Of a DNA stretch of 64,000 bases, positions 10,181 through 62,647 are shown in pieces (position 1 is the first letter of the stretch; each line of letters starts with the position of its first letter). Origin of the DNA: Marvania coccoides (Eukaryota; Chlorophyta; Trebouxiophyceae; Chlorellales; Chlorellaceae). Both the position numbers and the translations under genes were made by a program. The notes under the pieces were generated by a model. It did not search any database. It was not told the DNA's origin and saw nothing but the letters and a program-made list of their open reading frames with translations. Location: positions 2,108,001-2,172,000 of the forward strand of contig OY978099.1 of NCBI GenBank assembly GCA_963854735.1. The letters are read 5' to 3'.

Positions 10181-11248
10181 ATGGAATTTCGCAAAACAAC
10201 CTTGGAATTTTCGAGTTTACCTCAAATGCCCTCCATCGGCTGTCGGATCTGGCAAATGTTTGCTATTGTATTTTTGATTGCTATTATTAATGCAACATTT
10301 TTTTTGTATGAACGTTATAGATCAGAACTATGGGATGAAGAACATTCCATGAAATGTTTTACTCTCGATTTTTCATTTACAATCCAGCAAAGAATATGGC
10401 AACAGACTTCACAATGGCGAGGATTCGACATTCTCGAGTATGCAGGATATAATGGGCCGTGGATTGAAGAATACTATATGGATTACTGGGTTGGGCATTA
10501 TTATCCTGTCCAGCGCATTTATCTGCCTATATCATGGACCAATTGTCACGTGTATTGCTCCGATGAGCTGAAGCTAAAATTGCGGAACTTTATTGCTGAT
10601 CTGTCTCCAAATTATACATATTATACTGTTCTTCAGATTGACAACGGTCTTCACCACCCAGCACTTAATATTATAGTCCCACCCCAGATTGATATTTTGA
10701 TATTTTGTGCCGGTGGATTCACTCGAGGTGAAAAAGTAAGAAATGTCCCGATCCCACTACTGAAAAAAATATTGTCGCCTCAAACTGTTCCAAAAACCAT
10801 GAACGTGACATTTATTGGTACCACTACACATCCATTGCGAAAGGAATTAGAACAATTATATTCTACTAACTTTACTTTTTACAAACCTACCACTAACTGG
10901 TTAGAAATTATGGAAAAAAGTATTCTGTCATTGACTCCAAGAGGCTATGGCAGCACATCTTTTCGTCTGTACGAAGCTATCCAACTTGGGAGTATTCCCA
11001 TATATGTTTGGGAAGACGAGCTTCTCCTTCCCTTTTCTGAATACCTTGATTGGAAATCATTTTCCATTATTATTAATAGAAAAGACATTCCAAAACTTCA
11101 GATAATTTTAACAACGGCGAATATAGAGGATCTTCACCGTAACCTTCTCTCTGTAGTAAAGTATTTTAATTATGATTATACATCAGAATACATTACAAAA
11201 TATATAATAACTTCGAGTGCTCAGAATCAAGTATCTATCCTCAAATAG
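10181..11248 (+). CDS. Exostosin-like glycosyltransferase (GT47 type), type II membrane protein
   Basis: The 355-residue product has a hydrophobic segment at about 21-40 (Golgi signal anchor) and several N-glycosylation sites, as in lumenal glycosyltransferases. The segment SLTPRGYGSTSFRLYEAI, followed by GSIPIYVWEDELLLPF and LDWKSFSIII, is the classic exostosin signature: nucleotide-sugar binding region with conserved Arg and Glu. Family members add sugars such as galactose, glucuronate or N-acetylglucosamine to cell-wall or proteoglycan chains; the sugar here is unknown. I chose ATG 10181 because an in-frame ATG at 10010 would put the LINE-2 GA tail into the protein. The frame is intact, intronless and AT-rich. 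Confidence 0.85.
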   Translation: MEFRKTTLEFSSLPQMPSIGCRIWQMFAIVFLIAIINATFFLYERYRSELWDEEHSMKCFTLDFSFTIQQRIWQQTSQWRGFDILEYAGYNGPWIEEYYMDYWVGHYYPVQRIYLPISWTNCHVYCSDELKLKLRNFIADLSPNYTYYTVLQIDNGLHHPALNIIVPPQIDILIFCAGGFTRGEKVRNVPIPLLKKILSPQTVPKTMNVTFIGTTTHPLRKELEQLYSTNFTFYKPTTNWLEIMEKSILSLTPRGYGSTSFRLYEAIQLGSIPIYVWEDELLLPFSEYLDWKSFSIIINRKDIPKLQIILTTANIEDLHRNLLSVVKYFNYDYTSEYITKYIITSSAQNQVSILK

Positions 11249-11436
11249 TCAGCTTAAACCATATTTACAGCATTATAACAATAAAGTGAACGAAACAAAT
11301 ACAAAACGAAGGCAGCGCAGCCAAGTGGTTCCACAAGACATTCGTTCATTCCGACGCTAAGGATTCAGGCCAACTCACCAGCAGGGCTGTAAGTAGGACT
11401 GGTGTGCACAACGGTATCTGATCCCTATCTCTCCAC

Positions 11437-11640
11437 ATACATACATTACAGGGTTTTAAGTCCGCACAACAGGGCAACGAAGGCCCCATAGCAAACTGGA
11501 TCAGTTGAATGGTAATATAATAATAAATAAAAGAAATCAAATCGCCGAAAGAAACAGCAAGTACAAACAATACTAAAACACGAAGGGAACAAAAGAAGTT
11601 CTGATGTCTATTTGAAAACAAAACGAAATATAATTTTGAA
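11437..11640 (-). mobile_element. L1-like 3' untranslated end, minus strand
   Basis: CATACATACATTACAGGG followed by TTTTAAGTCCGCACAA is the inverted L1 3' end with its (TGTA)n tail, as at 20600-20653. Homology fades over about 200 bases. The stretch 11249-11436 shows nothing recognisable. Confidence 0.65.
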
Positions 11641-12399
11641 ATAAAAAACAATGCTTGAGATCCTCGCCTAGAGCGAGAGGAAGAAAGCAAGGCAGCCAAC
11701 GTGCTTGCCATTTGCTACACGGCCGAGGACATTCAAACCTGTACAGCATAAACGTGAAAGAATTATTTAGTATAATTTCAATGCCCATATTTCTTTCTCA
11801 ACACGCTTCCAAAAATGCAGGCTTGCAAGCTCAGGCATCATTTGAGCGAGTTGATATAGCACCCACGTAATCCTGCACGGAATTTGACGCCTTGGGAAGA
11901 AGCTGTGTGCGGTGCGTTATGAAAGTATGTCCTTTTGGGCATTAACATTTTATTTGCTTTTATAAACCATTCACATGTTGATTGACGCTATTGCGCAGTG
12001 TTACAACTGCGAGAGGGGGCATACCTTTATTTTGCGCGAGTTCCCTGGCGACAGGGCCAAGTTCGAAGAGAACGCCGACTTGAATGTCAATCCGAAGTTT
12101 GCTTGCTGCCCCTAGGCTACATGATCTAAGATCCTGCCACGACAATTTGTTGAAAACGCCCGCAAACCGCTGGCGAAGCTGGCGGCGGTCTGAAAAATAG
12201 CTGTTTTGTTCATCGCCTTATTGTAGAATCTGCTATCCTTAAAATAGGCTCAAACATTTCCTATGAAAGCGTCATAAGGATTGCTGGTAATCAAACTTTG
12301 TAATGATTCCGTACGCTAATGTCATATTTTGTAAATATTAAATGTTTGAAAAATATTCTTGCCCATCGTGCTCAAATTATCGTTTTTTTTTTCGTTTTA
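11641..12399. other. No recognisable gene
   Basis: Only short ORFs without motifs and no match to the other repeats of the window. It may be old, decayed intergenic DNA. Confidence 0.5.
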
Positions 12400-12615
12400 C
12401 ACACATATTGCGACGGCAACGCCGCAATCTGCAGAAGAATTGGAATCGGTCTTTGATTATGGTACACTCGATAAGTGACTGGAGGAGGAAAAACTCCTGA
12501 GTAGGAACAGTGCACCTACAATAGGGCGTCCTCACCCTGGGGTCTCTTTAAATCTTATTTTTGCTGAGAAATAAGACTGAGATTAATTATCATTGGTGCC
12601 TATTGGGCATGTGAA
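12400..12615 (+). repeat. Dispersed repeat R2, 3' half
   Basis: It matches about 850-1045. It keeps the hairpin region (CCGCAATC...GATTATGG, arms partly eroded) and the GTAGGAACAGTGCACCTAC segment. Confidence 0.65.
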
Positions 12616-12821
12616 TCAAATCATCCCATACCCCCTACTGGGCGGGCGTCGTGACATAGTTGCCAGCAAAAAAACGCCGTTTGGAGTAAATTTGGATCAT
12701 AGCAGCCACCTGAATGAGGTGGTCCGGATGCTTGACAGGTGCCACTGGCTGCACAGGCCTTGGGCCCCCTGCCTGTACAATCGTTGTTGTTTTGAGCGGA
12801 TGAATTAATAAATGCCCATAT

Positions 12822-13620
12822 CTCTCTCTCTCCGTATTACAGCTTATAGCGTTCAAAGAACACCCTACCGCCTTCACTTCCAGATCAAAATAATAACTAA
12901 CAGGCATAAATCAAACTAAATGAAATCGAATCTTTGTCGCGGGACATGTCCTCGGTCACTACGCCGTAAGCGGCTTGTACCATTGGTCTTAGCCAAAGAC
13001 CCAGCCCCGTGTATGCATGTCGCTGCTCCGTGTTGAGCAGCTGTCTCAGATCCATTCGCAGCCGCAGCAGCAGGGGTGAGGTCAGGCGGTCCGGCACCAG
13101 TTGCCCACGCTCCATCCATGAACATGCGCCATTAAGCTCTGTCAGCTGCCAGTTCTTTCCAGGAGATCCCCGTCGGTGTGCCGCCCTGGATGAAAATGCT
13201 GGCCTTGAGGAAGAGGGCGCGCAGGGTGTGCGGCGATGGCCCGATGATGGGGCTTGTCAAACTGGCGGAAAAGGAGGCGGCGGATGAGGTGTCTAGAATC
13301 CATACGAAGCATGTGTTCCAGCCAAGACATGCGTTTGGCGCGCACCATGGTCACAATGGAAGGGATTCCAGCACGGTGGAGTACAACCTCCTCCGAAACC
13401 TGTTGCTGCCAACGTACAATGACGATGATGCGCAGGGATGTCTAGTGGAAGACCTCAAGGCGCTCTAGCTGTGCGTCCGCCAGGGGCCAGCACTCTGCGC
13501 CGTAGAGCAGCACGTTGACGACAGCACAGGGGTAAAAATGGACCTTGATGGAGAGTCATACAGCTGCTTTGGCGCCAAAAAACGCTCAGACGCTTTGCGG
13601 CCCCCCAAAACATATTTCAG
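12822..13620 (-). pseudogene. LINE-2 reverse transcriptase C-terminal fragment
   Basis: The minus-strand translation gives VVNVLLYGAECWPL, then KRMSWLEHMLRM, matching the 'LLYGaEtW' and 'R..WlgHvlRM' blocks that end many LINE RT proteins. Upstream, KASERF and IKVHFYP fit the preceding block but need a frame change. There is an in-frame stop after the LLYG block. The 3' untranslated part (12822-13050) matches 9826-10020 and ends in a short GA/CT tail. It is a different LINE family from the L1-like copies. Confidence 0.7.
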
Positions 13621-13734
13621 GCTTACAATTTGCAAGCCATGCCTACAATTTAATGCTCTAAATCAGCAAATACAGCCTTCCACAATGCATATTAGTATGC
13701 GTTTATTAAGTATATGTACACCCTTCATGCATGC

Positions 13735-14392: not shown

Positions 14393-14395
14393 CCA

Positions 14396-14492
14396 TCATG
14401 AGTAGGAACAGTGCACCTACAATAGGCGTCTTTTTACATTTTAGCCACAATCTACAGAATAATTGGAATCGGTCTTTGATTGTGGTACTGTT
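14396..14492 (+). repeat. Dispersed repeat R2, middle fragment
   Basis: It contains GTAGGAACAGTGCACCTAC and an intact hairpin, CCACAATC/GATTGTGG. It abuts the end of repeat E. Confidence 0.6.
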
Positions 14493-14519
14493 ACAGGCTC
14501 TTATCTATGTTCTGTATTT

Positions 14520-15134: not shown

Positions 15135-15325
<191 letters not shown>

Positions 15326-17039: not shown

Positions 17040-20000
17040 AAAGGCCTCCTCCAAAGCGAGCCGTCCGCTGTTTTCTCACTTTTTCGAGGGGAGCGCCTTG
17101 TCATCCTTACAGAAACATGGCTGAGCGACGAAGAAACTCCCCCAACGGTGCCAAACTACCGCGCCTCCAATTTCCCACGCCCAACCGCGTCAACAACGGC
17201 GGCGGGAGGCGCCCGCGGGGGAGTGGCGGTCTACGTTTCTCTGGACCTGGACTCATTTGCCACCCCTTGGACAGAGGAACACTACCACGGTGGCCAATTC
17301 TCTTGGCTCCGATTTGATAAAGAGGCCGGACTGCCCCAGGATTTGTTTATTGCCGCCTGCTATTTAAAACCAAATGACCCTGACATGACTGACGCATGCT
17401 TTTGCTTTGAACAACAGGTTGCCCAAGCGTGTGGAATGGGCAACGTAATCGTCGCTGGTGACTTTAACGCGCACACTGGAGCGTCGGCGCAGCGGCGAAA
17501 CGAAGATGTTGCGCGGCCGCTAAACGAGATGGGGAAATGGATTTTGGGCATGGAGGAGGCCATTGCCGAGATCTTCATCGCTAACGGTAGAGTCGCCGGC
17601 GAAACCTCTGGTAACTTTACTTTCTGGAATTCACGTAACCAAAAATCTACCACCGACTATATTTTACTCGACCAAGATGTTCTTTCCAAGGCTAGCCTTG
17701 AGATCGAGGGACCCCCACCGCACGAGAGGCTGGACCACTGCCCCCTCAGGCTCAGCCTCCATGTTTTCTATCAGGTACGACCTACTAACACAACCGCCGC
17801 TACTAACTCAATTCCCTTGCTCCCTCCAAGCAATACATTTTTGCTCACGAGTGGCCAAGTCAAAGACTACGTCACATTTTTTCAAGAACGTCCCCAGCTA
17901 CTTCTGGCCGCGGCGGCAGCGGCGACGGGCGGTAGAGGCGTGGAGGCAGCGCTGGCAGCGATAACAGGAGTCATCGAGGAGGGCCTTGCCGCAGCTGGGG
18001 CCACAAAAGTGGTCTTTGAGAGGCACCAGCGCATGGATACGCGCGAAGCAGCTCGGCGGCGTATTGGCAGGGACCCGCAGCTGAAAACTTTGGTACAGCG
18101 GCGGCGGCAAGCTAGGCGGCAGAACAACGGAGCCTTGGTGCGAGCTCTGGACCGCCAAATTACCAGCCTTAAACGCGCGCTGGAGAAAAAGGATAAAGCC
18201 ACGGCACAGCAAGAGGTGCTGGCGGACTGGCGCAGCAACCCCCGGGCCGTATGGAAGAAATACAAGAGCGGCGACGCGGCGCCAGCGAAACATTCGGCGG
18301 TGGAGCTAACCGAATACTGCGAGCAGCTGCACGTCGGAGACCACCACGTGGGCGATGGCGAGGGGGTGATCCCCATCCCCACGCTGCTGGCGGCATTGTG
18401 CGGCGACGGCGAAATCCAGGAATTCACGGAGGAAGAGGTCCATGCAGGCATCATGCGGCTGAAGAATAACACGGCGGTGGCGGGCAGGTTGGGCCTGCTG
18501 CATCTCAAAGTGGCCGCAGCAGAGCTGGCTCCCACGCTGGCTGCGCTGTTTAACGTGGTGGTGCGAACCAAGACCATGCCTTTTGACATATATATGGCGC
18601 TGGGTGTGATTACCATGGCTCCCAAGCCGCGGGCGGCCACCACTACGCTCAACGACCACCGTAGCATCACCGTTTGTAGCATCTTAGATAAACTTTACAT
18701 GACTTGTTTGACAAGGCGCCTCGGCGCTTGGGGAGAGGACAATAATTTGCGCACCGACACTCAAACTGGATTTCGGCGTGACCGCAGGACTAAGGATAGC
18801 ATTTTTACCCTGCGTGCATTGATTGAATGCCATCAGGCTGATGATACACCACTTTACGTTGCTTTCGTAGATTTCAAAAAGGCATATGATACTGTGCCGC
18901 GCGATAAACTCTGGGCTAAACTACAGGCTAGGGGCATCACTGGATTCATGCTTGATGCTCTAAAAACCCAATACGCTAACGTCCCTATTTCGGTTAAAAC
19001 TCTGGAGGGTCTTTCAGCCCCATTCCTGTCCACTTTGGGGCTGAAGCAGGGAGACCCTGCCAGCTGTGCCCTGTTTGGTTTCTACATTGATGATCTGCCC
19101 TATGCCATTTTACGCCAAGGCGACTCTGCAAATCTGCCAACTTTAAGCAACACCACCGTCCCCCCTCTCCTCCATGCAGATGATCTGGCGCTGGTGGCCA
19201 CGAGCATCGAGGGGCTACAAGTGCAGCTGGCGGCACATTCGGAATACGCAGCGGAGTGGGACCTCATCTGAGCCTGGCAAAGACAAAGGTGATGTCGCTG
19301 GGGGGGGGAGGCGGACCTATATTCGTTCGGGTCATCTACAGGGGGGTGCAGCTGGAGGAGGTGGCAGAGTTCAAATATTTAGGCGTGATATTTACGGCTG
19401 GAAGGGATTTTGGTGCTGTGGCAGCGGCGGCACGGCTGAAAACAGCGAGGGGGGCGCTGGCGGTGATGTGGCGGCGGTGCGCACAGCTGGGGATCACATC
19501 GGCACGACTTCTTGGCGAATTCATTAATGCGGTGGTAATCCCAACATTGGGATACGGAGTAGAGACCTGGGGGCCAGCCCAGGTGGCTGCTGCGGTGGCG
19601 GTGACCGCAACGACAAGTGCGAGATTTTCTACCGAGCCTTCTTGCGGCGCGTGATGGGAGTACGCAAAGGCACGGCCAACGTGGTCACACTGGGGGAATT
19701 TGGTCGCTTCCCATTGGCGTGCGCTTGGGCAAAACATATTTATGGGTACTGGGAGCGGCTGCAGACCTTGCCCGACACGAGGGTGACGCTCAAGGCAGCA
19801 TTTCGGGACAACCTTGCGCTGGCCCTGCAAAAATCATCTTCGCAGCGCTGTTGGGCGGCGCAAGTGATGTGCCTGATCGACGCTTTATGTCTGGAAAGCG
19901 GTGTGGCGGAAAGCGGCGTGGTGCCCGCAGGGAGCGACGACCTGGACGACCCCAGGCTGGCAGAGGCGGCCATGCGCCAACGCTACATGGATTTTTACCG

Positions 20001-23267: not shown

Positions 23268-24257
23268 ATGTTTTTGCGTAATTTTCGACCCTTCCGCGAG
23301 AGCTACATGCATGCATATCGAAATCGACGCATAATAGCTTTAACAGTCTCTGTGGTTTTCTTCTTTTCCGCCGCTGCATCGGCATTACAATTGATATTTC
23401 ATTTTAAAAGACAGGCAGGGCAGTTGGGCCATTCAGGCATTTCTGTGATTACAACTATAAAAACATTGGACGTTGATCTTCAACCATGTGCTGCTCGCTT
23501 GCAATTTCTTGCCATTAAAAGCTGGTTAGCATTTGCAAATGAAGTGATATTGCTGGTGGACAATTTTTCAGTTTGCCGGCATTTTAGTTCATTCTCAAAA
23601 CATGTAGTTTGCCAGCAGCATCCATGCATGCACTACATTTTCAAGATTCCAATTGTCTCTTGTCTTTTTTCAACAGGGGAGATTTTGGCTAAATACCCAC
23701 TTATAATGTTTACAAACCCAGACTTGATTTACAGTGATGTCCATCCAACAGTTGAAGCAGCAATGGCTCTCTCCCGTCCATTCCTTATAGTTGGAAAGAG
23801 AATAGATGTCAATGCTGAAATGTTGTGCAAAAACTCATCTGTATCAAGTGAACAAATCTTTTCTATTGCCAAAGAAATTGGCACACTCAGACCAGATGAT
23901 ACCATCGACTATTTCTTGTTCGTAAAAAAACAACTCCCTCTTTTTAGTATGCCGCCTTTCTTGGTGGGAGTTTGGAGATGGGACAACTGGCTGCTTGCAG
24001 CAACTATCCGCGAGAATAAAACTTGTACTATAGATGCATCTGATTCAATACGTGCTGCGCATATTGGGCCAGCAAGCTCTAATTATCAAGGAGCTAAAGG
24101 TGCATCGCACAGTGACGCTTTGTGGGTTGCTTCTCTGCCCTTACTTCAGCCTGATGTAGGGCCTGTCGGTTTAGGAGAAATGAAATATGCACCTTTTCAT
24201 ACAGTGGTTGATACTCAATCAAGCAAGGTGCAAATATTCCCTAAACAACGTCCTTGA
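23268..24257 (+). CDS. Nucleotide-sugar transferase-like type II membrane protein
   Basis: The 329-residue intronless frame has a basic tail and a hydrophobic segment at about 22-46. The lumenal part shows a GT-A-like layout: VITTIKTL near 60, MFTNPDLIYSDV near 147-158 (an acidic, metal-binding-like position) and MPPFLVGVWRWDNWLL at 228-243, then AAHIGPAS. The block 'DYF.f...lp..mP.f.vG...WDNWl' is typical of a glycosyltransferase-like family seen in plants and algae; donor and acceptor are unknown. The neighbouring DNA is AT-rich and unlike the flanking L1 copies. The segment CTTCTTTGTAACCAA, about 65 bases upstream, also occurs about 360 bases upstream of the gene at 45489. Confidence 0.75.
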   Translation: MFLRNFRPFRESYMHAYRNRRIIALTVSVVFFFSAAASALQLIFHFKRQAGQLGHSGISVITTIKTLDVDLQPCAARLQFLAIKSWLAFANEVILLVDNFSVCRHFSSFSKHVVCQQHPCMHYIFKIPIVSCLFSTGEILAKYPLIMFTNPDLIYSDVHPTVEAAMALSRPFLIVGKRIDVNAEMLCKNSSVSSEQIFSIAKEIGTLRPDDTIDYFLFVKKQLPLFSMPPFLVGVWRWDNWLLAATIRENKTCTIDASDSIRAAHIGPASSNYQGAKGASHSDALWVASLPLLQPDVGPVGLGEMKYAPFHTVVDTQSSKVQIFPKQRP

Positions 24258-28084: not shown

Positions 28085-28091
28085 ACTGTCA

Positions 28092-30073: not shown

Positions 30074-31108
30074 ATGAGAGCGGCCGTGTTGTTTTGTCGT
30101 AGAAGTGGTAAGGTCGTCCTAAGAATTACAACCTGCATATTTTTACTATCATACGTTGCCCTTTTATATCAATCGATATGGAATCCACAGAGTTATTTTA
30201 TAATACCATTTCCTCCACAGCAAATTTCAACAAATTCGTCAAGGCCATATAAAATCATTCTTGCCAACCCTTTTTTCAATGAAGATGATTTGGCTTACAT
30301 TAAAATGTTAGAGCTTGGTGAAGTTGTGGATATAGCTCTGTTTGTACAAAATACACATTCTTTCACAGGAATTCCTTCCGAGAATCGATCTTTTCCTAAC
30401 AAGACTTTACTGCGACCTTGGAATTCTAAAATACATTTTTTCGAGTACTCTCAGCCAACTTCAAAAATTGATAAAACTAAAGCATGGTCAGTCGAGGATA
30501 ATACTCGGGAGTTCATTCGAAAAAATCTCCTAGCTATGAATTTGCAGCCTAATGATGTAGTTCTTATGGTAGACTTGGATGAAATACCTGCTGAATGGGC
30601 AGTCTTGCAAGTTGCATCTAGATTACAAGCTATGCATGAGCGAGGAGACTTCAGTTTAATTTGGTTTGACCTTTTGTACTTCAGATATAATGCGAAATTT
30701 GCTCCACCGTTTGGCACAATGTGGCCAATGGCTTTTGCAACAACAATCAAGGCTATGATGGACGAAAAGTGTCCAATGACTGAATGGCGTGCCCATATAT
30801 ATTGTGGAAAAGACCGAAAAAAGCTGCCATCAATTAAAGAGGCCGGCATCCACCCCAGCAGTTTCAATGATGCCAATGGAGTATTGGGCAAATTACGGTC
30901 ATATTCACATGCCCAGGATTATAAAGAAGAGTTCACAGCAGAAAAATTCAAATCTCTTTTGAGAGAAGGAAAAGACATGGAACAGGGTGGAAAAGATCTG
31001 ATACGCTTACATGTGACAGATATGGCTGCCTTTGATGGGTTGCGCCCAAGCACACGAAGTGCATTTTTGCAGTTTTCAACGAAGCTTGAAACGGCCCAAA
31101 TGGCATAA
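30074..31108 (+). CDS. GT17-like N-acetylglucosaminyltransferase-type protein
   Basis: 344 residues, intronless, with a basic tail and a hydrophobic segment at about 15-33. The hallmark of family GT17 is present: REFIRKNLLAMN, then DVVLMVDLDEIP at about 161-172, the acidic metal-binding motif. An upstream ETH-like region (FVQNTHSFTGIP) and a later WRAHIYCGK and GGIHPS-like block (KEAGIHPSSFND) also fit. GT17 enzymes of animals add the bisecting GlcNAc to N-glycans; in algae and plants the acceptor is less certain. It would act in the Golgi lumen. It is about as long as plain plant and algal GT17 proteins. Confidence 0.8.
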   Translation: MRAAVLFCRRSGKVVLRITTCIFLLSYVALLYQSIWNPQSYFIIPFPPQQISTNSSRPYKIILANPFFNEDDLAYIKMLELGEVVDIALFVQNTHSFTGIPSENRSFPNKTLLRPWNSKIHFFEYSQPTSKIDKTKAWSVEDNTREFIRKNLLAMNLQPNDVVLMVDLDEIPAEWAVLQVASRLQAMHERGDFSLIWFDLLYFRYNAKFAPPFGTMWPMAFATTIKAMMDEKCPMTEWRAHIYCGKDRKKLPSIKEAGIHPSSFNDANGVLGKLRSYSHAQDYKEEFTAEKFKSLLREGKDMEQGGKDLIRLHVTDMAAFDGLRPSTRSAFLQFSTKLETAQMA

Positions 31109-33581: not shown

Positions 33582-34424
33582 ATGACATATTTAACGAGCC
33601 GGCCACGATTTACCTACTGCCGTGAATACACAATTGTTGCCATACTATTTCTGTTTCTATACTATTTGGTTGTACATAAGGCTCCAAAAGGGGTCGCGTT
33701 CGATAATAATTTCCTCGAAGGATTTAAATGCTTGCAAAAATTAAGGGGATGGCCTGAGAAACCAAAATATTCTGAATTCAGCAAACCAATTACCATGGAC
33801 GGTGGAGGGAGGCACGTGCTTGATGAAATGCTGCGAAATTACTCATCGGACTTTCTTTTTGTCGAGATTGGTATATTTCTCGGTGGCTCAGCTGCTCGGT
33901 GGCTAAATACATCGAAATTTCTCCATTACTTTGGAATTGATTTATATCGCCCTAATGGAGATTGGATGGTCAAATTTATTGAGGAAAATCAACAATATTA
34001 CAGTTATTGGGAAAAGTATATCGCGCAATTAAAAGAAGACGATGGTCTTACTCAAACACTATACAGTAATTTATGGAAATACAGAGAGCGTGCTGCACTT
34101 AATTGGCATGGCTCACCAATTGGTCTTCTCGACTTAATCGGATGCGATTTAAAACCATCAATCATTTACGTTGATTCTGGAAAGGAGTATCTCGAGCTCC
34201 AAGCGCTATGGCTTCTCTGGCCCCAAGCTCTCATTTGCGGAGATGATTGGTCATGGGGAAACGGAACAGCTGCTGCTCGGCTTTGCCATATATCCACATT
34301 TATGAATGCAACTATTTATGCTCAGCAGGCAACGTGGTTTATGGTTCATCCTCAAATGGTTTTAGGCAAACAAGTTATTGAAGACTTGGTAGCTATCAGA
34401 GGTGCGCAACAACAATGTGTTTGA
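33582..34424 (+). CDS. Class I SAM methyltransferase-like type II membrane protein
   Basis: 280 residues with a hydrophobic anchor at about 16-31. The segment FLFVEIGIFLGGSAARWL (92-108) fits the glycine-rich SAM-binding loop, followed by GIDLY (118-122). Residues 194-223, SIIYVDSGKEYLELQALWLL...CGDDW, match the 'iyiDg.H.y..v..Dl..w...l..GDDy' block of the Methyltransf_24 and related families, with Ser-Gly-Lys in place of the usual Ala/Gly-x-His. With its membrane anchor and its neighbours, a role in methylating a glycan in the Golgi is likely, but this is inference. The frame is intact and intronless. Confidence 0.7.
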   Translation: MTYLTSRPRFTYCREYTIVAILFLFLYYLVVHKAPKGVAFDNNFLEGFKCLQKLRGWPEKPKYSEFSKPITMDGGGRHVLDEMLRNYSSDFLFVEIGIFLGGSAARWLNTSKFLHYFGIDLYRPNGDWMVKFIEENQQYYSYWEKYIAQLKEDDGLTQTLYSNLWKYRERAALNWHGSPIGLLDLIGCDLKPSIIYVDSGKEYLELQALWLLWPQALICGDDWSWGNGTAAARLCHISTFMNATIYAQQATWFMVHPQMVLGKQVIEDLVAIRGAQQQCV

Positions 34425-35370: not shown

Positions 35371-37719
35371 GCCTACGGGGGAGTGGCGGTCTTCGTTTCT
35401 CTGGACCTGGACTCATTTGCCACCCCTTGGCCAGAGGAACACTACCACGGTGGCCAATTCTCTTGGCTCCGATTTGATAAAGAGGCCGGACTGCCCCAGG
35501 ATTTGTTTATTGCCGCCTGCTATTTAAAACCAAATGACCCTGACATGACTGACGCATGCTTTTGCTTTGAACAACAGGTTGCCCAAGCGTGTGGAATGGG
35601 CAACGTAATCGTCGCTGGTGACTTTAACGCGCACACTGGAGCGTCGGCGCAGCGGCGAAACGAAGATGTTGCGCGGCCGCTAAACGAGATGGGGAAATGG
35701 ATTTTGGGCATGGAGGAGGCCATTGCCGAGATCTTCATCGCTAACGGTAGAGTCGCCGGCGACACCTCTGGTAACTTTACTTTCTGGAATTCACGTAACC
35801 AAAAATCTACCACCGACTATATTTTACTCGACCAAGATGTTCTTTCCAAGGCTAGCCTTGAGATCGAGGGACCCCCACCGCACGAGAGGCTGGACCACTG
35901 CCCCCTCAGGCTCAGCCTCCATGTTTTCTATCAGGTACGACCTACTAACACAACCGCCGCTACTAACTCAATTCCCTTGCTCCCTCCAAGCAATACATTT
36001 TTGCTCACGAGTGGCCAAGTCAAAGACTACGTCACATTTTTTCAAGAACGTCCCCAGCTACTTCTGGCCGCGGCGGCAGCGGCGACGGGCGGTAGAGGCG
36101 TGGAGGCAGCGCTGGCAGCGATAACAGGAGTCATCGAGGAGGGCCTTGCCGCAGCTGGGGCCACAAAAGTGGTCTTTGGGAGGCACCAGCGCATGGATAC
36201 GCGCGAAGCAGCTCGGCGGCGTATTGGCAGGGACCCGAAGCTGAAAACTTTGGTACAGCGGCGGCGGCAACCTAGGCGGCAGAACAACGGAGCCTTGGTG
36301 CGAGCTCTGGACCGCCAAATTACCAGCCTTAAACGCGCGCTGGAGAAAAAGGATAAAGCCACGGCACAGCAAGAGGTGCTGGCGGACTGGCGCAGCAACC
36401 CCCGGGCCGTATGGAAGAAATACAAGAGCGGCGACGCGGCGCCAGCGAAACATTCGGCGGTGGAGCTAACCGAATACTGCGAGCAGCTGCACGTCGGAGA
36501 CCACCACGTGGGCGATGGCGAGGGGGTGATCCCCATCCCCACGCTGCTAGCGGCATTGTGCGGCGACGGCGAAATCCAGGAATTCACGGAGGAAGAGGTC
36601 CATGCAGGCATCATGCGGCTGAAGAATAACAAGGCGGTGGCGGGCAGGTTGGGCCTGCTGCATCTCAAAGTGGCCGCAGCAGAGCTGGCTCCCACGCTGG
36701 CTGCGCTGTTTAACGTGGTGGTGCGAACCAAGACCATGCCTTTTGACATATATATGGCGCTGGGTGTGATTACCATGGTTCCCAAGCCGCGGGCGGCCAC
36801 CACTACGCTCAACGACCACCGTAGCATCACCGTTTGTAGCATCTTAGATAAACTTTACATGACTTGTTTGACAAGGCGCCTCGGCGCTTGGGGAGAGGAC
36901 AATAATTTGCGCACCGACACTCAAACTGGATTTCGGCGTGACCGCAGGACTAAGGATAGCATTTTTACCCTGCGTGCATTGATTGAACGCCATCAGGCTG
37001 ATGATACACCACTTTACGTTGCTTTCGTAGATTTCAAAAAGGCATATGATACTGTGCCGCGCGATAAACTACAGGCTAGGGGCATCACCGGATTCATGCT
37101 TGATGCTCTAAAAACCCAATACGCTAACTTCCCTATTTCGGTTAAAACTTTGGAGGGTCTTTCAGCCCCATTCCTGTCCACTTTGGGGCTGAAGCAGGGA
37201 GACCCTGCCAGCTGTGCCCTGTTTGGTTTCTACATTGATGATCTGCCCTATGCCATTTTACGCCAAGGCGACTCTGCAAATCTGCCAACTTTAAGCAACA
37301 CCACCCTCTCCTCCATGCAGATGATCTGGCGCTGGTGGCCACGAGCATCGAGGGGCTACAAGTGCAGCTGGCGGCACATTCGGAATACGCAGCGGAGTGG
37401 GACCTCACCCTGAGCCTGGCAAAGACAAAGGTGATGTCGCTGGGGGGTGGCAGCGGGCCCAGCAGCGGGCCCAGCAGCGTTCGGGTCACCTACAGGGGGG
37501 TGCAGCTGGAGGAGGTGGCAGAGTTCAAATATTTAGGCGTGATATTTACGGCTGGAAGGGATTTTGGTGCTGTGGCAGCGGCGGCACGGCTGAAAACAGC
37601 GAGGGGGGCGCTGGCGGTGATGTGGCGGCGGTGCGCACAGCTGGGGATCACATCGGCACGACTTCTTGGTGAATTCTTTAATGCGGTGGTGATCCCAACA
37701 TTGGGATCTGGAGTAGAGA
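35371..37719 (+). mobile_element. L1-like LINE, copy B, ORF2 part
   Basis: The frame is open from 35383 to 37413 (endonuclease from the GGVAV block onward, then RT). It differs from copy A by a 12-base deletion near 37070 and a 7-base deletion near 37305 that shifts the frame before the catalytic ADD box. It resumes in another frame from 37335 with an extra GGGCCCAGCAGC repeat. All three changes are shared with copy C, so B and C have a common source. The 3' part is replaced by an inverted L1 piece at the palindrome. Confidence 0.85.
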
Positions 37720-40380: not shown

Positions 40381-41451
40381 ATGTCACGATTCCGGAAATG
40401 TAGATCGCCACGAATTTTAGGAATTTCAGTTTTTGTCCTTTTTCTGCCCTATTTTTTTTGGCCAGACCTCCCACCTTATTTCAAATGGCAAGCGGCATTT
40501 TCTTTTATTGGCAGACGAGACCCTCGACTCAATATAGACAAATCGTACATTTGGGAATTTGCCAATAGCCAGGCCTGTTATTCAGACATGTGGGATTATT
40601 TTCAAACGCATCGAGGCGAATTCCGTGGAGAGGGAGGAAGCGAGTCTCTCAAATTGAAATTGATATCCCTTGCTCCAAAACTAACTTTGTCTAAATCAAC
40701 GAAAAGTGTGACATATATTGATGTTGGCGCTAATACTGGACAGATTGTACCATTTTATCGTAAACTGACTAACCACTCTTCAGATCCTTCGAATTTACAT
40801 CTCTTTGAGCCCAACCCAATGAACTTTGAATTGATGAAAAAAGAGTTTAGTAACGATCCTAACATTTTTCTTTACAATATGGCTGTCTCAGATCAACCTG
40901 GGACAGCTTTTTTTGATTTTATGAAGAAAAAAAACTATGGTGGAAATCAGTTTGGAAGACTGGTTGCCAGATCTCCAGATAAAGCATCACTGTCGCAAAT
41001 AAATGTGACCACATTAGACCAAGTGTTCATAGATAATATGTCATCCACTGAGGTCGTTTTATTGAAAACAGATACTGAAGGTTATGATTATCTTGTTATG
41101 CATGGAGCAAGTCAATTGTTATTAAGCACACGATTGTATTTATTTGAATGCCATATCCTACAGCGTGCTGATCAGGGTGGTCCTGGAAGTAATCATTCCC
41201 AAATTTCTTCATTTCTTTCTGGCTTTGGTTTTGATGTTTTCAAAATTTCACCAAATCAATTTGTCCTTTTCAGTGGCAATTTTTACAACAAGGTTGTTGA
41301 TGAACCCAAGTACATGGGGTGGCAAAATTGCTTGGCAATTAGAAGGAATGATCCCTTGTGGGGTGAACTTTTCAAGGTAAACAATATATATAAATCTTGT
41401 GAAATAACTCCTGTCAGGAGTGTTGGATCTACGAGTGGACAATTCATATAA
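40381..41451 (+). CDS. FkbM-family methyltransferase, type II membrane protein
   Basis: 356 residues with a hydrophobic segment at about 13-28. The SAM-binding motif YIDVGANTGQ is at 112-121, LFEPNP at 141-146, and LLKTDTEGYDYLVMHGA at 227-243. All three are diagnostic of the FkbM family, which methylates hydroxyls on sugars and other small groups. The anchor suggests action on glycans in the Golgi. The frame is intact and intronless. Its AT-rich composition contrasts with L1 copy C, which starts about 400 bases downstream. Confidence 0.85.
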   Translation: MSRFRKCRSPRILGISVFVLFLPYFFWPDLPPYFKWQAAFSFIGRRDPRLNIDKSYIWEFANSQACYSDMWDYFQTHRGEFRGEGGSESLKLKLISLAPKLTLSKSTKSVTYIDVGANTGQIVPFYRKLTNHSSDPSNLHLFEPNPMNFELMKKEFSNDPNIFLYNMAVSDQPGTAFFDFMKKKNYGGNQFGRLVARSPDKASLSQINVTTLDQVFIDNMSSTEVVLLKTDTEGYDYLVMHGASQLLLSTRLYLFECHILQRADQGGPGSNHSQISSFLSGFGFDVFKISPNQFVLFSGNFYNKVVDEPKYMGWQNCLAIRRNDPLWGELFKVNNIYKSCEITPVRSVGSTSGQFI

Positions 41452-45488: not shown

Positions 45489-46553
45489 ATGGCAGCACAA
45501 AGCAGGACACGCTCTGCAAATATTAAGGTTAAATTTGGATGCATGCCGTCAAAATTAAACAAAACGCTGTGTGCTGTTCTTTTAGGGATAGTTTTATTTG
45601 CTTCTTTCATCTTTTATCCGGTGTTGAGAACTTTGCTTGAATGCCCTGCAGTATCTTTAAATTCACATAAACAATATATCTTTACTCTACAATCACCGTT
45701 GTCATGTACAAAAAAGCAATTGAACACATTCCTAAAGAACATTTATGGCGCTCGAGAGGGACAACTTATCGTTATAGCCACAGCGAATTCCGGATTTTCT
45801 TTAATGTTGAGGAATTTCCTCTGTTATGCAACTTCTGCTGGTACCTCTGAAAAAATTTTGGTTTTCACCGAAGATTTTGATTTGGCTGGAATTGCTGTCG
45901 AGCAGGGACATGCAGCTGTGGTATCAAACGTGCGAGGCTCCTCGAATGAACCTCTTAATTATGGGACTGTTATCTACCAACAACTCATGCATGCAAGAGC
46001 ACGGCTGGTACTGGATATAATGAACCTTGGCTACAGTGTCCTTGTCGCTGATATTGATTCAGTTTGGTTAAAAAACCCCATTCCGCATCTCCAGATGTGC
46101 AATTATGACATTGCTGCCCAACAAGATTATGGTCACGATTCCACTGGTTGGGCTAATCTATGCTGCGGCTTCTTGTTTTTGAATGCCCGTTCACCTCTAG
46201 TGATTCAATTGTGGCAAGCTGTTGTAAATCGCCATGCTGCCCATCTTGAAGCGGCTAGACAGCATAAATTAAAAAAGAAACAGATAGAATTTGGAACTGA
46301 ACAGATAATGTTTAATGACCTCCTTAAAGAGTCCCAAAGCCAGTTTCGCATTCATAAACTTGATGAAGTTCTATTTCCAAATGGTCACATTTATTTTGCA
46401 GAGCAGAACACTAATGTCTCTAAAGCCCAGGCAGTCGTTGTCCACAATAATTATATTGTGGGGTTTAATAATAAAGTAACACGGTTTATGAAGTTCGATT
46501 TATGGAAGCTACAAAATGATAACAAGACTTGTGAAAACATAATTAGAGCGTAA
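45489..46553 (+). CDS. GT77-like nucleotide-sugar transferase, type II membrane protein
   Basis: 354 residues with a hydrophobic anchor at about 26-46. The catalytic region has LGYSVLVADIDSVWLKNP at about 180-197, with the D-x-D metal-binding pair at 188/190, and LCCGFLFLNARSP around 224-236. These are typical of the nucleotide-diphospho-sugar transferase domain of family GT77, which in plants and algae transfers arabinose, xylose or galactose onto cell-wall polymers or hydroxyproline-rich glycoproteins. A late VVVHNNYIVGFNNK fits the family's 'H.N...G...K' block. The frame is intact, intronless and AT-rich. Confidence 0.85.
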   Translation: MAAQSRTRSANIKVKFGCMPSKLNKTLCAVLLGIVLFASFIFYPVLRTLLECPAVSLNSHKQYIFTLQSPLSCTKKQLNTFLKNIYGAREGQLIVIATANSGFSLMLRNFLCYATSAGTSEKILVFTEDFDLAGIAVEQGHAAVVSNVRGSSNEPLNYGTVIYQQLMHARARLVLDIMNLGYSVLVADIDSVWLKNPIPHLQMCNYDIAAQQDYGHDSTGWANLCCGFLFLNARSPLVIQLWQAVVNRHAAHLEAARQHKLKKKQIEFGTEQIMFNDLLKESQSQFRIHKLDEVLFPNGHIYFAEQNTNVSKAQAVVVHNNYIVGFNNKVTRFMKFDLWKLQNDNKTCENIIRA

Positions 46554-50165: not shown

Positions 50166-51771
50166 CAGTGGTGCTGGCCTCGGGCGACAGGTGATCAGGC
50201 TGTGGCGCGGGCGGTTGGCGCGGCGGCGGCGCGGTCTGATCTACGGAGAAATCATCGCGGGCGGAGGCTACCGGGCAGGGCTTGTCTGCCGGCGAAATAC
50301 GCTCTTCGTCTTTGCCCTCAGAGCGGCCATGTGTGGCAATTGGCACGTAATAACTAGTTGTTGGGGTGCTGCTGGGAGCTGCGCGGGGCTCCGGCGTGCG
50401 GCGCAGAGGGGCACGGGGGTTCTTGAACTCGTCTTGAGAAATTTCTGGCGCTGGGCAGTGGTTGGGCGCGGCCGTTGGGCGCCAGTAGTGGTCAGGAATG
50501 GGTGCGGCAGGGGGTCTTGAGTAGGATGTGGACGCTTCGCAAGGGGCGGTCGGGGTAGTAGTAGTAGTCAGGGTAGGCTTGGTAGTAGTAGTCACGGCAG
50601 GCGTGGTAGTAATAGTCGGGGGCGGTGGTCTTGGGGAGGCGGACTCAGCGGGCACTACTGAGTCCGGTTGGCGTTTGGGACGCACTGGTGGCCTGGAGTC
50701 CAGTTGGGCGCGTTGCACCGGAAGCAGGGGTGGCCCACTCCGGCGGGGCGGTTGTTGCGCTGGTTGGCCGGCTGCTGGTTGTTGCCGCGCCAGTTGGAGT
50801 GGCCAGGGTTGTTGGAGCCGTTGATGCGGTGGGAGCTGTGGACGCCGTTGGAGCCCTTGAAGCTGCGGTAGCCGTTGGGGCTGCGGGGGGAGCGAGAATT
50901 GTCATTTCCGTGCTCGTTACCCGGCAGTAGCTCCTGTTGGTTGTGGCGGCGGCGCTGGCCGAGATGGGGGTTGTTACGGAACGCTTTGACTTCCATGGGG
51001 GTGTAGGAGTCGTGCTGCAGCGGGTAGGGGTTGCCCTCCAGCTGCGCGAGGTAACGGACGGCGCCGTCGAGCGGGATTTCGTAGGCGGGGTCTTCGGCGC
51101 GCTTTCCCGCGATGTGGTTGTCCAGGGCTAGGCGGTTGCTGTGAAGGATTGAAAACTTAAACTTCTCGAGCACGGTATCCTTGGTCATCTCGCCTCCAGC
51201 GGTTTCGAAGCGTTGCACGGCGCGGGCGAAGCGGGTTTGGTAGGCAGCGACGGACTCGTCGGACTTCTGCTTGATGGCGCGCAGGGCGTTGGCGGCGATG
51301 TCCTTGGAGTTCACGCTAGCAAACTGCCGCTTGAGGGCCGTGGCAAAATCTTCAAACGATGCGAAGGGGCCGGCGGGGTAAGCTTGGGTGGAAACGGTGA
51401 CCCACCATTCGCGCGCGGGGCCAGAGGTGCTGCGCACGGCGATGGAGATCTTCTCGTGGTGTGTGAACGTGCGTCCGAGGAAGGCGACAGCCTGGACTTC
51501 TTTGAGGAAGTCTTCTCCGGTGATGGTGTTAGCCTCGCCGAGAATTTGGACACCTTGGCCTCTTGTTGGATGGAGGCGGTGCTTGCTTGACGAGGGGCCG
51601 CGTTGGCGGAGGCAGCGGCTTGGCGGAGAGAGTCTCTTTCTTGGCTGAGGGTTTCCACGTGTGCCCGCAACCCTTCTTGTTGGTTGGTGAGGACATGGAC
51701 TTGGGAGAGTAGTTGATTGAAGGTCGCCTGGTCCACTTGGACGGAGCCGGAGGGGATGTTGGGGTCTGTCA
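50166..51771 (-). pseudogene. Ty3/gypsy gag, frameshifted, minus strand
   Basis: From ATG 51771: a coiled-coil N-terminus (QATFNQLLSQVHVLTNQQE), then IQQEAKVSKF, where a frameshift near 51500 breaks the frame. The second part (51437-50655) shows GPAREWWVTV, FEDFATALKRQFASVNSKD, LDNHIAGKRAEDP, YTPMEVKAF and the zinc knuckle CFRCNAPNWTPGHQC. After the knuckle another frame carries a long Pro/Thr-rich stretch to about 50170, which would lead to pol in a complete element. It is clearly related to the gag at 2880-3878 but diverged. An L1 tail truncates it. Confidence 0.8.
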
Positions 51772-51959
51772 TGGCCGGCAAATAAGTAGGTCGAGGGGGA
51801 AGTAGTCGGCGGGACCGGGGGAAGTAGTTGGCTAGAAGCGGAATCTTGTCTTCTACCGGGTTTTATATGTGTGCTTGGAGGGTTGTACTTGAGTTGCGCA
51901 AGTGCTGTTCTCGAGGTCTTTGAGTGTAATGGTTCTTTGCAAATGAGTCGAAACCAAGT

Positions 51960-52224
51960 TGTAATAGTTTGTGAAAAGGAGCCCAGCTCTACTTGAGTGC
52001 CCAGCTCTGCTTGCTAAAGCGATAGGATTGAAATCAAGACGTTATATTATATTTAATAAGCCCCCCTGTTATGTTTTGGGGAGTGGTCTTGAATGCATGA
52101 AAATAGAAAGAGAGAATAAGATGACAAGACAAAAGGAATGCAAAATACAGAATTAGAGCCATAGAAAGGTGTCATTATTCACGGTATTATATATAAACAA
52201 AGAGGAGCAGCTGGTGCTGCTACA
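51960..52224 (-). mobile_element. Gypsy 5' LTR, minus strand
   Basis: 265 bp reading TGTAGCAGCACCAGC ... ATTACA on the minus strand, followed after two bases by the TGGTTTCGACTC primer-binding-type site and then the gag above. The outer part matches 7271-7435. It has inserted in Helitron sequence at 52224/52225. Confidence 0.8.
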
Positions 52225-57945: not shown

Positions 57946-58059
57946 TTGTGTGTGAAATGAAAATGTCATAACTGGCCATGCAATAGGAATTAACGAGAGT
58001 TAGAGGTATATTTGGAATGCTTAGATTTACAAAAACAATTTTAAGGCTCTCCTACAACA

Positions 58060-59835: not shown

Positions 59836-61774
59836 GGCATGTGACTGGGACCCCATTGTGGAAGGGCTAAAATTGCTGAACTCGTTTTGCTGATGCTGCT
59901 CAGGAACCCGCGATTGAGGCCCCTCTGAGTCACCCAATCGCGGCTGCTTGGGTGATGGCTCGTCGCTGGTGAGGCGGGGAGACTCAGTGCGCTGTCGAGG
60001 AGGTGCCGTCGAAGAAGTGCCACATGTCCTCTTTATGTGCTCTGAACTGTAAAACCAAGAATGACTGCGATGGCTAATGGGGGCATTGCATCGGATGCAT
60101 CAATCAGAGAAGATAGGAAATGAAAGCTATTGAAAAAGTGAATAAATAGCATTATCAATACTTTCTCTACGCGCACACTATAAAACCCGCGAAATTTTAA
60201 GATGCAAAAAAACAATGTCATCAGATCATAACTGCGACTTAGGCAAACTTTGGGACTCAAGGGAGACTCTCAAGACTGTAAACATGAACTGTACATACGA
60301 AAATATTACAACAAGTCGGTACAAACTGAATTTAGAAAAAATCAGCCGAGGTCACGAGACTTTCGCCTGATTTTTCACCTAGGTCAGCCGGGTTTATACA
60401 TTCCGACGCAGACATCCAGGGAACTGTTAAAAAAGTCGCAACATGTGGCTGGATTTTTTCGTGAAAATTAGGACCACCCAGCTTGGCGGGCAACATGATG
60501 AGTTTCTCTGAGCTGCATAATTCAATGATATCGACGGTTGGCAACTCACAATTTTGTCGCTGGTAATCCTGCAGGCGCCCCATTCACTATGCCAACACGA
60601 TAGGTTCACTGCAGGTTCAATCGCAGGCGCAAAATCGTCGAACTTCATAAATCATCACCCCTGATTTTTCTGGCAAGGAAAAGGAAAGGGGTGGGACTCC
60701 CGCTAGGTCTGCCTCTTATTATGGCCAGGGTTTCAACGCTTCGCAATGCAACACATGTTAAAATGCACGCCCCTTATCATGTGCCTGTGCAGAGAAGCGG
60801 CCCTCCGTCATTCTGAGAGAGGGAGGGACAGCACCGTGTGTTCTCTGCCCAAGTTTTGCTCAAGTCGTGAATTTTATGCGAGGAACGCTGGCTGTCCATA
60901 GCCACTGTATATTTGTTTTAATATGAATGCACGATGGTGTGCCTTCGAGTTGATGCTTTTTAATTTTTGGTACATGTTGATTTTGTGCTCCTCAGAGGGG
61001 CAAATTTTTCTCTCCGACGTATGGAATTATATCTATCACTATTAATTGTTATAAAATAACGCGAAGATAGCATTATAACAGCCAGGAATGCGCATTGAAA
61101 GCAACCGCCTGACCAAAAGGCACGCCTCGCCTGACTCGCGCTTGACCTCAGGCCTAAATATATCAAGAGTCAGGCGAAAAGTCAGGCGGATTCAGGCGGG
61201 GACAAGGTTTCCGACGTCCAATCTAATTCATTATGTGTTTGTGAGTCGTGAAGCGATGGGGATTGTGAAACGTTGAAATAATGCTCTGGAGGACGCTTCA
61301 GCTAGTTGCCATGATAGTGAGGGTTGGTTTTGCCTGGAATTGAAGGGCAAGGAATAAAATATATGAATTAGAAAATTGGATTTCCTGCGGAAATGAGAGA
61401 ACCAGTTTTTTTTTTATTTATGATTATTTTTTTTTTGCTTTAGTTTCATCTCTGTTAATTTTGATTAGGTCCTTGTTCCAAATGTGCAAAATAGTCATGC
61501 AATGTTTTAAGCTGCTTGCGATGTTGTATATTTAACAAATGATATTCCAAGTGTGGAGTCACCAGCCGGTTTGTAATTGCTAAAAAAAAAACTGATAGTC
61601 ATCATCAAAATATACAAATTATAAAATTGCCATATCAACATTAAATCGTGTATGTGCTTTTTCGTATTGACATTCTCCTTTTATTTCTCTTCTATTAACT
61701 CTTCCCAGAAATAAATTAAAATATCTTCGCTACTAGATCTCCAGAACTGCAATGCCTATGGCAAACTATTCTCA
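59836..61774. other. No recognisable gene
   Basis: Only short ORFs. 59890-59950 contains an 8 bp inverted repeat (CGCGATTG/CAATCGCG). 61110-61195 has repeated GTCAGGCG-type words. The last ~400 bases before the gene at 61775 are AT-rich. Confidence 0.5.
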
Positions 61775-62647
61775 ATGAAAATTACGAATATAGCATCACG
61801 ATTTAAATGTAGTCATATTCGACTATTATGTGCCGTATGGATTGTTTGTATTTTAAGTGTTCGGAATTTTTATCCCAGCAATTCGTCAAGCAATAGTATC
61901 GCAGAGCATTCCCTGAATTGCCATCCGGCACTTAACAAAAGTTGCTGTGTTCAACTTAAAGTGGATACATTGCCATCTCACGCTGGATTATTTGCTGTTG
62001 TAGAGCTCAACATACCACCAAATAGTGCCAGAATGGAGGAGGTTCTCCGTGCACTGCATCTTTCTGTTAGAAGCAATCCTAATTTGCATTATGTCTTCAT
62101 TGCCAGTGACCCTAGCTTGGTTTCTTTAAAGTTTGACTTTCGTCATGATATTTGGCACTGCCCAGAAGTCCTATATGGAACTCTCCTTGACATTGGAAAT
62201 ACATATACTGGTGTTAAAATAGCCTCCAGTGCTGATAACTGGTTTCCTACTATTGATTTTAAGTGCTTATTCTCCTTTGAAAACAAACCAGTGGCTTATC
62301 TGTTATCCCGTCAAGAATCGGGTGAGTACTCAGAGAGGAATGCTTCATGTACACTTTACTTTAAAAAAGGGAGCTGGGATGGTATTATCTTCGAAACTGT
62401 TACCAAAGATGTCCTTGATGGAATGCGCTTTGCAAGGAATTATTGGGGTGCAGAAAATGTAGCTGCATGGGTTCTTCAAAATGCAGGATACATGCTGTAT
62501 AATTTATGTCCAAAATATTCACCTGTCCATGTGCATAAAACGAACAGAACCGATTTTCGTGTGAGAGTTAATTATCGCTCAAATTCTCTTGGTAGTGGCC
62601 AAGTGCGCTCCATTTTGGATCAACCCAAATTGTGTAATTTTTTGTAA
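61775..62647 (+). CDS. Algal-type glycosyltransferase-like type II membrane protein
   Basis: 290 residues with a hydrophobic anchor at about 15-30 and a Ser/Asn-rich stem. The segment IASSADNWFPT (149-159), then VAYLLSRQES (173-182) and SWDGIIFET (200-208) precede NYWGAENVAAWVLQNAGYML (222-241) and YSPVHVHKTNRTDFR (248-262). This order (a '.D..F' site, 'a.L.R.e', 'LG.en.la..l...Gy.v.np...i...H.H.s..R') is that of an uncharacterised glycosyltransferase-like family frequent in algae, partly resembling GT-A enzymes. Substrate is unknown. The frame is intact and intronless. Confidence 0.6.
   Translation: MKITNIASRFKCSHIRLLCAVWIVCILSVRNFYPSNSSSNSIAEHSLNCHPALNKSCCVQLKVDTLPSHAGLFAVVELNIPPNSARMEEVLRALHLSVRSNPNLHYVFIASDPSLVSLKFDFRHDIWHCPEVLYGTLLDIGNTYTGVKIASSADNWFPTIDFKCLFSFENKPVAYLLSRQESGEYSERNASCTLYFKKGSWDGIIFETVTKDVLDGMRFARNYWGAENVAAWVLQNAGYMLYNLCPKYSPVHVHKTNRTDFRVRVNYRSNSLGSGQVRSILDQPKLCNFL

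Follow-up and report, generated by a model that had tools for sequence, protein, structure and literature searches.

Seven candidate glycan-enzyme genes in the window

The window analyzed in this study, a 64-kb stretch (C3:2108001-2172000) of the 2,312,286-bp contig C3 in a 22.46-Mb genome of 15 contigs, holds seven single-exon frames for putative Golgi-type glycan enzymes, which an initial annotation had taken for a same-strand functional set lying among retroelements. Contig C3 ends in TTTAGGG repeats, indicating that the region is telomere-proximal; this repeat is the telomere of Mamiellophyceae and plants (PMC11106453). Analysis of the window and the surrounding chromosome arm suggested that the seven frames belong to a larger reservoir of such genes, low in GC and packed with retroelements.

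All seven frames run from ATG to stop on the + strand, encode 280-356 residues, and have low GC (0.36-0.41) and low GC at third codon positions (GC3, 0.32-0.36). Each contains exactly one hydrophobic segment, near the N-terminus (7/7), as called here and below by a simple Kyte-Doolittle profile rather than a trained topology predictor. The open-frame search and hydropathy profiles thus found the frames intact, intronless and singly anchored, as originally described. Among 60 simulated 64-kb low-GC sequences, generated by a first-order chain fitted to the seven genes and flanking DNA, the longest frame measured 204 residues, short of the 280 of the smallest window frame, indicating that the window frames are not chance frames. 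Gaps of 2.5-15.2 kb, several with transposon pieces, separate neighbouring genes.

Four of the seven proteins passed Pfam cut-offs, which bore out the GT47, GT17 and FkbM labels given earlier and assigned the protein labelled GT77-like to Nucleotid_trans. The frame at 10181..11248 (+) encodes a GT47 (exostosin-type) glycosyltransferase of 355 residues, anchored at about residue 23, whose match to PF03016 (E 8.7e-16; 58.5 bits against a cut-off of 33.4) is partial (profile positions 178-291 of 293); its stop-bearing relatives lie at C3:2065860 and C3:2085212. The GT17-type glycosyltransferase at 30074..31108 (+; 344 residues, N-terminal anchor) also matches its profile in part (PF04724, E 1.3e-13; 51.2 bits against 26; positions 71-189 of 348) and was the single GT17 match in the genome profile search; a PDB sequence search returned only weak kinase matches (E 0.05-0.07), which were taken as chance. 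The FkbM methyltransferase at 40381..41451 (+; 356 residues, N-terminal anchor) passed FkbM cut-offs across the domain (PF05050, E 6e-11; TIGR01444, 69 bits against 37.7) and has relatives at C3:2099391 and C9:847k. The glycosyltransferase at 45489..46553 (+; 354 residues, N-terminal anchor) matched the Nucleotid_trans profile over positions 4-208 of 208 (PF03407, E 6.1e-25; 88.9 bits against 22) and shows a DxD motif by eye. It is GT77-like (Nucleotid_trans includes GT77) and had no match in a PDB sequence search.

The labels of the other three proteins found no counterpart in the profile libraries (neither Pfam, searched to E=1, nor NCBIfam, searched to 0.1, gave a match). Two of them are putatively glycosyltransferase-like, judging from motifs read by eye and from conserved relatives in the same genome. 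The protein of 23268..24257 (+; 329 residues, N-terminal anchor), a putative GT-A-type glycosyltransferase with an NPD motif, had none of 5743 candidates score in a large protein search. A single-frame relative, 47% identical, lies at C6:1462706, alongside two weaker genome relatives, and its alignment with the window protein keeps NPDLxYSDV and GVWRWDNWLLAATI / WRWDNWLLAATI. The putative glycosyltransferase-like protein of 61775..62647 (+; 290 residues, N-terminal anchor) has a relative at C8:1293284, 50% identical, with long conserved blocks in the alignment, and the N-terminal hydrophobic segment recurs in both the C6 and the C8 relative. Structure models of 23268 and 61775, computed with no alignment, had a mean predicted local distance difference test score (pLDDT) of 35.8 and 32.6, respectively, too low to use. 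The third frame, at 33582..34424 (+; 280 residues, N-terminal anchor), encodes a putative class I methyltransferase-like protein, so named for its VEIGIFLGGSA motif, which was identified by eye; the large protein search yielded no scoring homologue among 429 candidates, and a genome search returned the frame itself and no further copy.

The window seven among thirty low-GC frames

The window was joined to 140 kb of distal and 40 kb of proximal sequence, giving a 244-kb arm that reaches the C3 telomere. Low-GC frames, defined as ATG frames of at least 150 residues with GC below 0.46, numbered 30 in this arm (151-518 residues), the window seven among them. An N-terminal anchor was found in 27/30 of these frames, compared with 4/106 of the GC-richer frames, a set that includes overlapping and antisense frames. 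N-glycosylation sequons occurred at 1.36 per 100 residues, compared with 0.76 +/- 0.08 after shuffling (maximum of 500 shuffles, 0.98), a density that would be expected of proteins exposed to the secretory lumen.

Two of the frames, 2221271 and 2224113 (named by their C3 positions), are identical, leaving 29 distinct frames to be scanned. Nine exceeded Pfam cut-offs, all in glycosyltransferase or methyltransferase families: the four in the window, FkbM frames 2099391 and 2177170, Nucleotid_trans frame 2181279, Methyltransf_23/11 frame 2239124, and GT61 frame 2294421. Eight more matched below cut-offs, comprising GT8-like, FkbM-like, PC-esterase-like, two NXPE-like and Methyltransf_22-like frames, together with FUT8-like and aminotransferase fragments. 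The aminotransferase fragment (C3:2247030, -) resembles the end of DegT/DnrJ aminotransferases, at a score slightly below the Pfam cut-off, and is perhaps a decayed amino-sugar gene. Frame 2248477, with no Pfam match, shares 44% identity with the FUT8-like fragment. The domain lies nearly whole within one frame in the FkbM and Nucleotid_trans members. The classed frames are thus predicted to be sugar- or methyl-transferring enzymes, or are similar to acyl-esterases; such functions, combined with a single anchor, are as expected of Golgi enzymes that act on secreted or surface glycans. The only housekeeping-type family recognised among the arm frames scanned was a PIF1-like helicase (C3:2199692, +; PF05970, E 5.8e-40), which is perhaps part of a Helitron-type element.

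These counts changed the picture of the window in several respects. The view that each family is represented by one gene did not survive: the 244 kb contain three FkbM frames over the cut-off and a weaker FkbM-like pair, two Nucleotid_trans frames, and other pairs of paralogs. The shared strand proved uninformative, because the 30 frames lie on both strands (20 +, 10 -; two-sided binomial 0.10) and a same-strand run of at least seven arose in 41% of shuffles with the same counts. With 30 such frames in the surrounding 244 kb, the number seven reflects where the window happens to be cut.

Base composition and selection

Eighteen arm stretches of 10 kb averaged a GC of 0.486 (0.434-0.562), and the window itself 0.476, compared with 0.546 (0.458-0.620) in 15 outside samples of 2 kb, ten taken from other contigs and five from C3 below 1.6 Mb (these five averaged 0.545). 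Within the arm, GC3 was 0.30-0.42 in the 30 low-GC frames and 0.58-0.76 in 29 GC-rich frames of at least 300 residues, a contrast made partly circular by the GC cut of 0.46 used for picking the frames; the GC-rich frames are largely transposon pieces by inspection, and some were profile-scanned. The anchor contrast and the comparison with relatives outside the arm do not depend on this cut in the same way.

Members of the same families outside the arm are richer in GC3, at 0.82 (C4) and 0.64 (C6) in GT47 frames and at 0.72 (C9), 0.69 (C11) and 0.53 (C5) in FkbM frames. Three window genes were compared with relatives outside the arm at 46-47% identity. Over aligned residues, GC3 was 0.32 in the window FkbM gene and 0.73 in its C9 relative, and 0.32 in 61775 and 0.52 in its C8 relative; for 23268 and its C6 relative, whose frame was taken from the first ATG, the values were 0.34 and 0.74 over 190 residues. 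The C9 gene and the two FkbM genes compared from the arm show similar pairwise identities (43-47% over aligned codons), indicating that composition does not track descent. Low GC follows location.

Over five gene pairs, the proportion of synonymous differences (pS) was 0.80-0.93 and that of nonsynonymous differences (pN) 0.35-0.39, with differences commonest at codon position 3; the three window-versus-outside pairs gave pS of 0.81-0.89 and pN of 0.35-0.39. This concentration at third positions indicates that the genes have been selected as proteins. The arm genes have probably been long resident in an AT-drifting environment, and the transposon pieces of the arm look younger than the resident genes.

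Genome-wide distribution of the families

The GT47 and FkbM families were concentrated on the terminal region of C3, taken as its last 0.33-0.44 Mb, or about 2% of the genome. Of 16 GT47 genome matches, 10 lay on C3 from 1.868 Mb; after merging across gaps of 3 kb, these represented 6 of 10 loci, with 0.2 expected. FkbM placed 10 of its 29 genome matches on C3 from 1.868 Mb (expected, 0.57) and 11 from 1.69 Mb (expected, 0.80). Long interspersed nuclear element (LINE) matches followed the same pattern: the part of C3 from 1.98 Mb, which makes up 1.5% of the genome, carries 45 of at least 72 matches and 21 of 42 clusters (0.6 clusters expected). Protein kinases, used as a control, gave at least 143 matches, eight of them on C3 and none beyond 1.42 Mb, with 2.8 expected from 1.868 Mb; this control, of modest power, shows no excess on the arm. 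Likewise, none of the 21 genome matches to chlorophyll-binding proteins, a second control, was on C3. The initial annotation had set its proposal against an even spread of these families over the genome with no strand or composition bias; the clustering of GT47 and FkbM and the composition bias held, whereas the strand bias failed.

Transposable elements and turnover

Sequence between the window genes includes LINE and long terminal repeat (LTR) material, as described earlier. A LINE open reading frame (ORF) piece at 17385..19271 (+) matched reverse transcriptase above the cut-off (PF00078, E 1.7e-17) and an endonuclease below it, and a second copy at 35545..37413 (+) matches the first at 98% identity over residues 1-593. 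A Ty3-type retrotransposon gag lies at 50658..52010 (-; PF03732, E 1.5e-11). A gag-like ORF at 2880..3878 (+), likened to it by eye, is inside a 2.7-3.3 kb repeat that self-comparison found in four arm copies at least 99% identical, an identity indicating that some insertions are recent. Repeats of at least 150 bp within the arm account for 43% of its bases, and 26/30 low-GC frames lie outside these repeats.

Rearranged gene copies are found in the same arm. A 4.2-kb inverted duplication at C3:2218900-2227454 (99.8% identical, about 115 bp between its arms) holds two identical FkbM-like genes and LINE pieces. The GT47 relatives at C3:2065860 and C3:2085212 are pseudogenes that carry one or more in-frame stops each and form an inverted pair (97.7% identical over 2.1 kb). 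The arm also contains incomplete copies of 2177170 and 2183518. Together, these three kinds of copies indicate that duplication and decay are under way.

A proposed reservoir of glycan enzymes and alternative explanations

On balance, we favor the reading in which this low-GC, retroelement-packed, telomere-ended arm of a large chromosome serves as a reservoir of Golgi-type glycan enzymes, and we regard it as somewhat better than an even prospect. The clustering and the composition support the original proposal that Golgi-type glycan enzymes are gathered in an outlier region of low GC and high transposon content. We envisage that glycan-enzyme genes would be kept, duplicated and lost in the arm through retroelement-driven rearrangement, and that such turnover could change the set of surface glycans quickly. 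Reduced recombination would account for the low GC and the transposons alike, and selection by surface-glycan-binding viruses, grazers or partners might keep this gene class in the arm. Any part played by the arm in surface change or virus resistance is conjectural.

Several observations weigh against this reading. Eleven of the 29 scanned frames had no Pfam match at the E-value used, and 2211989 had a weak match to a metallopeptidase family (E 0.059), taken as chance; for these 12 frames, lacking a useful Pfam match, the label of glycan enzyme derives from topology, by-eye motifs or relatives. The frame search misses intron-containing genes and thus provides no average intron number. Five samples at C3 1.70-1.95 Mb averaged a GC of 0.475 (range, 0.42-0.54) and were kept out of the outside average as possibly inside the region; coverage of C3 from about 1.4 to 2.07 Mb consists of a few loci and samples of 2 kb. 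The arm has only 2 of the 12 Nucleotid_trans genome matches, and members of the GT47, FkbM and Nucleotid_trans families are also found on further chromosomes, in some cases close to the end of another contig, so that the arm is enriched in these families and not their exclusive site. For LINEs, 70 of 89 candidates were scored, and for kinases, 120 of 288, so that both counts are minimum values. Binomial P values overstate the clustering, since the region borders were set after the matches had been seen.

The proposal that the seven genes form a dedicated pathway cluster, making and methylating one surface polymer, draws on the adjacency of different enzyme types on one strand in the window. 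It appears very unlikely given that the window edges are no natural borders in an arm with 30 such frames on both strands, that same-strand runs of seven are frequent in shuffles, that the genes are widely spaced with transposon pieces between them, and that three of the seven have relatives on C9, C6 and C8; a functional set of exactly seven was left unsupported. An ordinary telomere-proximal nursery of fast-duplicating, dispensable genes and transposons, with no special glycan role, would account for relatives near other contig ends, such as C6:1462706 (28 kb from the end of a 1491320-bp contig), C8:1293284 (15 kb from the end of a 1309372-bp contig) and C5:9131. We consider this explanation unlikely, as a single topology dominates at least 244 kb, the frames that could be classed share one kind of function, and the two near-end relatives that were read have a higher GC3, 0.74 and 0.52, than the arm genes. 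A comparably low probability is assigned to a mating-type or sex-determining region that suppresses recombination, with glycan enzymes as passengers or as agents of gamete recognition, an explanation that overlaps with that of a glycan-enzyme reservoir. Mating-type genes include RWP-RK factors, and RWP-RK matches were found at the proximal edge (C3:1865237, over the cut-off) and inside the arm (C3:2202786, partial and below the cut-off). However, the 16 RWP-RK matches are spread over 9/15 contigs, which makes one near the edge a weak sign. Low GC in a sub-region of a large chromosome is also the pattern of big outlier chromosome 1 (BOC1) (PMC3491373), but BOC1 has expressed housekeeping genes and more introns, whereas the arm has none of the at least 143 kinase matches and a single PIF1-like helicase.

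Acquisition of AT-rich glycan genes horizontally or from viruses, followed by settlement in a safe haven, would be consistent with the AT-richness of the window genes, with the lack of homologues of 33582 and 23268 in the large protein search, and with a UDP-GlcNAc 2-epimerase that looks bacterial by eye. This epimerase, of the non-hydrolysing type, was found proximally on this end of C3, in the sample C3:1900001-1902000 (sample positions 2-1138, +; PF02350, E 1.3e-115; GC3 0.47; truncated at the sample start). We nevertheless consider such an origin improbable. Three of the seven genes have relatives of higher GC3 in the same genome, a counterargument that does not extend to 30074 and 33582, which lack genome relatives. 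Scans of viral contigs with three window proteins, sensitive to close relatives only, gave none, and the FkbM profile retrieved 16 viral loci that are only 22-30% identical over the core. The best FkbM relatives were two short-contig proteins of unstated origin, 43% and 35% identical; an N-terminal hydrophobic segment was called in the latter and, at the same threshold, not in the former. None of the seven window proteins matched an anti-phage library. Against phage families, the 40381 FkbM protein had two matches, one to a methyltransferase family (E 9.1e-14) and one to an unknown family (E 4.3e-4); the sole matches of 23268 (E 0.26) and 33582 (E 0.61) were taken as chance, and the other four window proteins had none.

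Comparison with known outlier regions

Mamiellales use Lhcp in place of light-harvesting complex II (LHCII). In the genome studied here, a chlorophyll a/b-binding protein at C9:565231 scored best against two multi-domain light-harvesting complex I (LHCI) chains (9vfj) and next against LHCII chains, and the genome profile search returned no match to a phycobilisome linker, on which ground a red-algal (Porphyridium-like) host was rejected; the host is taken to be a chlorophyll a/b alga. The antenna protein hints that the host falls outside Mamiellales, in another green class.

The precedent to which the initial annotation had appealed, that of outlier chromosomes in small green algae, was supported by published accounts (PMC5082852, PMC3491373). 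Chromosome 19 of Ostreococcus tauri has low GC, transposon-related genes, enriched glycosyltransferases and methyltransferases, including FkbM, and a large inverted duplicated region, and it is differentially expressed in virus-resistant lines (PMC5082852). The small outlier chromosomes (SOCs) of Mamiellales measure 102-290 kb (PMC5082852, Table 1), and the SOC of Bathycoccus prasinos has low GC, few introns and a gene content led by glycoconjugate enzymes and methyltransferases (PMC3491373). Similar outlier chromosomes were not found in Chlamydomonas, Volvox or Chlorella (PMC3491373), and a Mantoniella without outlier chromosomes has been described (PMC11106453).

Of the known systems, these SOCs are the closest to the arm, which shares with them a GC lower than that of the genome, transposon-related genes (as in O. 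tauri), an enrichment in glycosyltransferases and methyltransferases including FkbM, many genes without recognised function, and inverted duplications; its intact low-GC frames are single-exon, which would be in line with the few introns of SOCs. The arm differs from SOCs in being at least 244 kb of telomere-ended sequence on a 2.31-Mb contig and not a whole small chromosome; the assembly may have wrongly joined the arm to C3. Its inverted duplications are small (2-4 kb) beside the large duplicated region of O. tauri, and the single-anchor form of 27/30 frames stands beside accounts of SOCs that also list epimerases and sugar transporters; the 30 arm frames had no Pfam match to either. The arm is rich in transposons, whereas Bathycoccus is said to have none. 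A further mark of SOCs is that their genes change expression, and the chromosome changes size, in virus-resistant lines.

Mamiellales BOC1 provides a parallel in place, as it too has low GC in a sub-region of a large chromosome (PMC3491373), although its expressed housekeeping genes with their higher number of introns contrast with the single-exon intact low-GC frames and the missing kinases of the arm. Outside Mamiellales, the scattered low-GC regions of Chlorella (mentioned in PMC3491373) likewise lie on ordinary chromosomes, and Chloropicon primus has short low-GC regions linked to polyketide synthases, with no concentration of glycan enzymes mentioned in the available part of the account (PMC6731263). 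A search of titles and abstract openings in the open-access literature found no glycan-enzyme low-GC region outside Mamiellales. The arm is SOC-like content on a BOC-like place, and by analogy, it may work like a Mamiellales SOC with the geography of a large-chromosome sub-region.

We tentatively raise the possibility, which we hold to be well short of probable, that the arm represents a glycan-diversity compartment outside Mamiellales, independently evolved or retained from a deeper ancestor, in which a non-recombining telomeric arm of a large chromosome, given over almost entirely to single-anchor Golgi enzymes and kept rich in transposons and AT, varies the sugar coat in defence against viruses and further agents that bind the cell surface. 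If this is true, the SOC would be one case of a general algal solution rather than an oddity of Mamiellales, and the design of an 'immunity chromosome' would not be tied to a separate small chromosome, nor perhaps to one order. The arm also offers a natural experiment: the same families, 43-50% identical, have a GC3 of about 0.33 in the arm and 0.52-0.74 outside it, and such pairs of relatives make the AT-richness of outlier regions testable.

Additional observations

Two GC-rich frames of 446 and 379 residues adjoin the telomere at C3:2309179-2311934, with a GC3 of 0.70 and no Pfam match. Among the chlorophyll-binding matches, those at C2:579558 and C2:581890 have identical scores and lie on opposite strands about 2 kb apart, and are probably an inverted gene pair.

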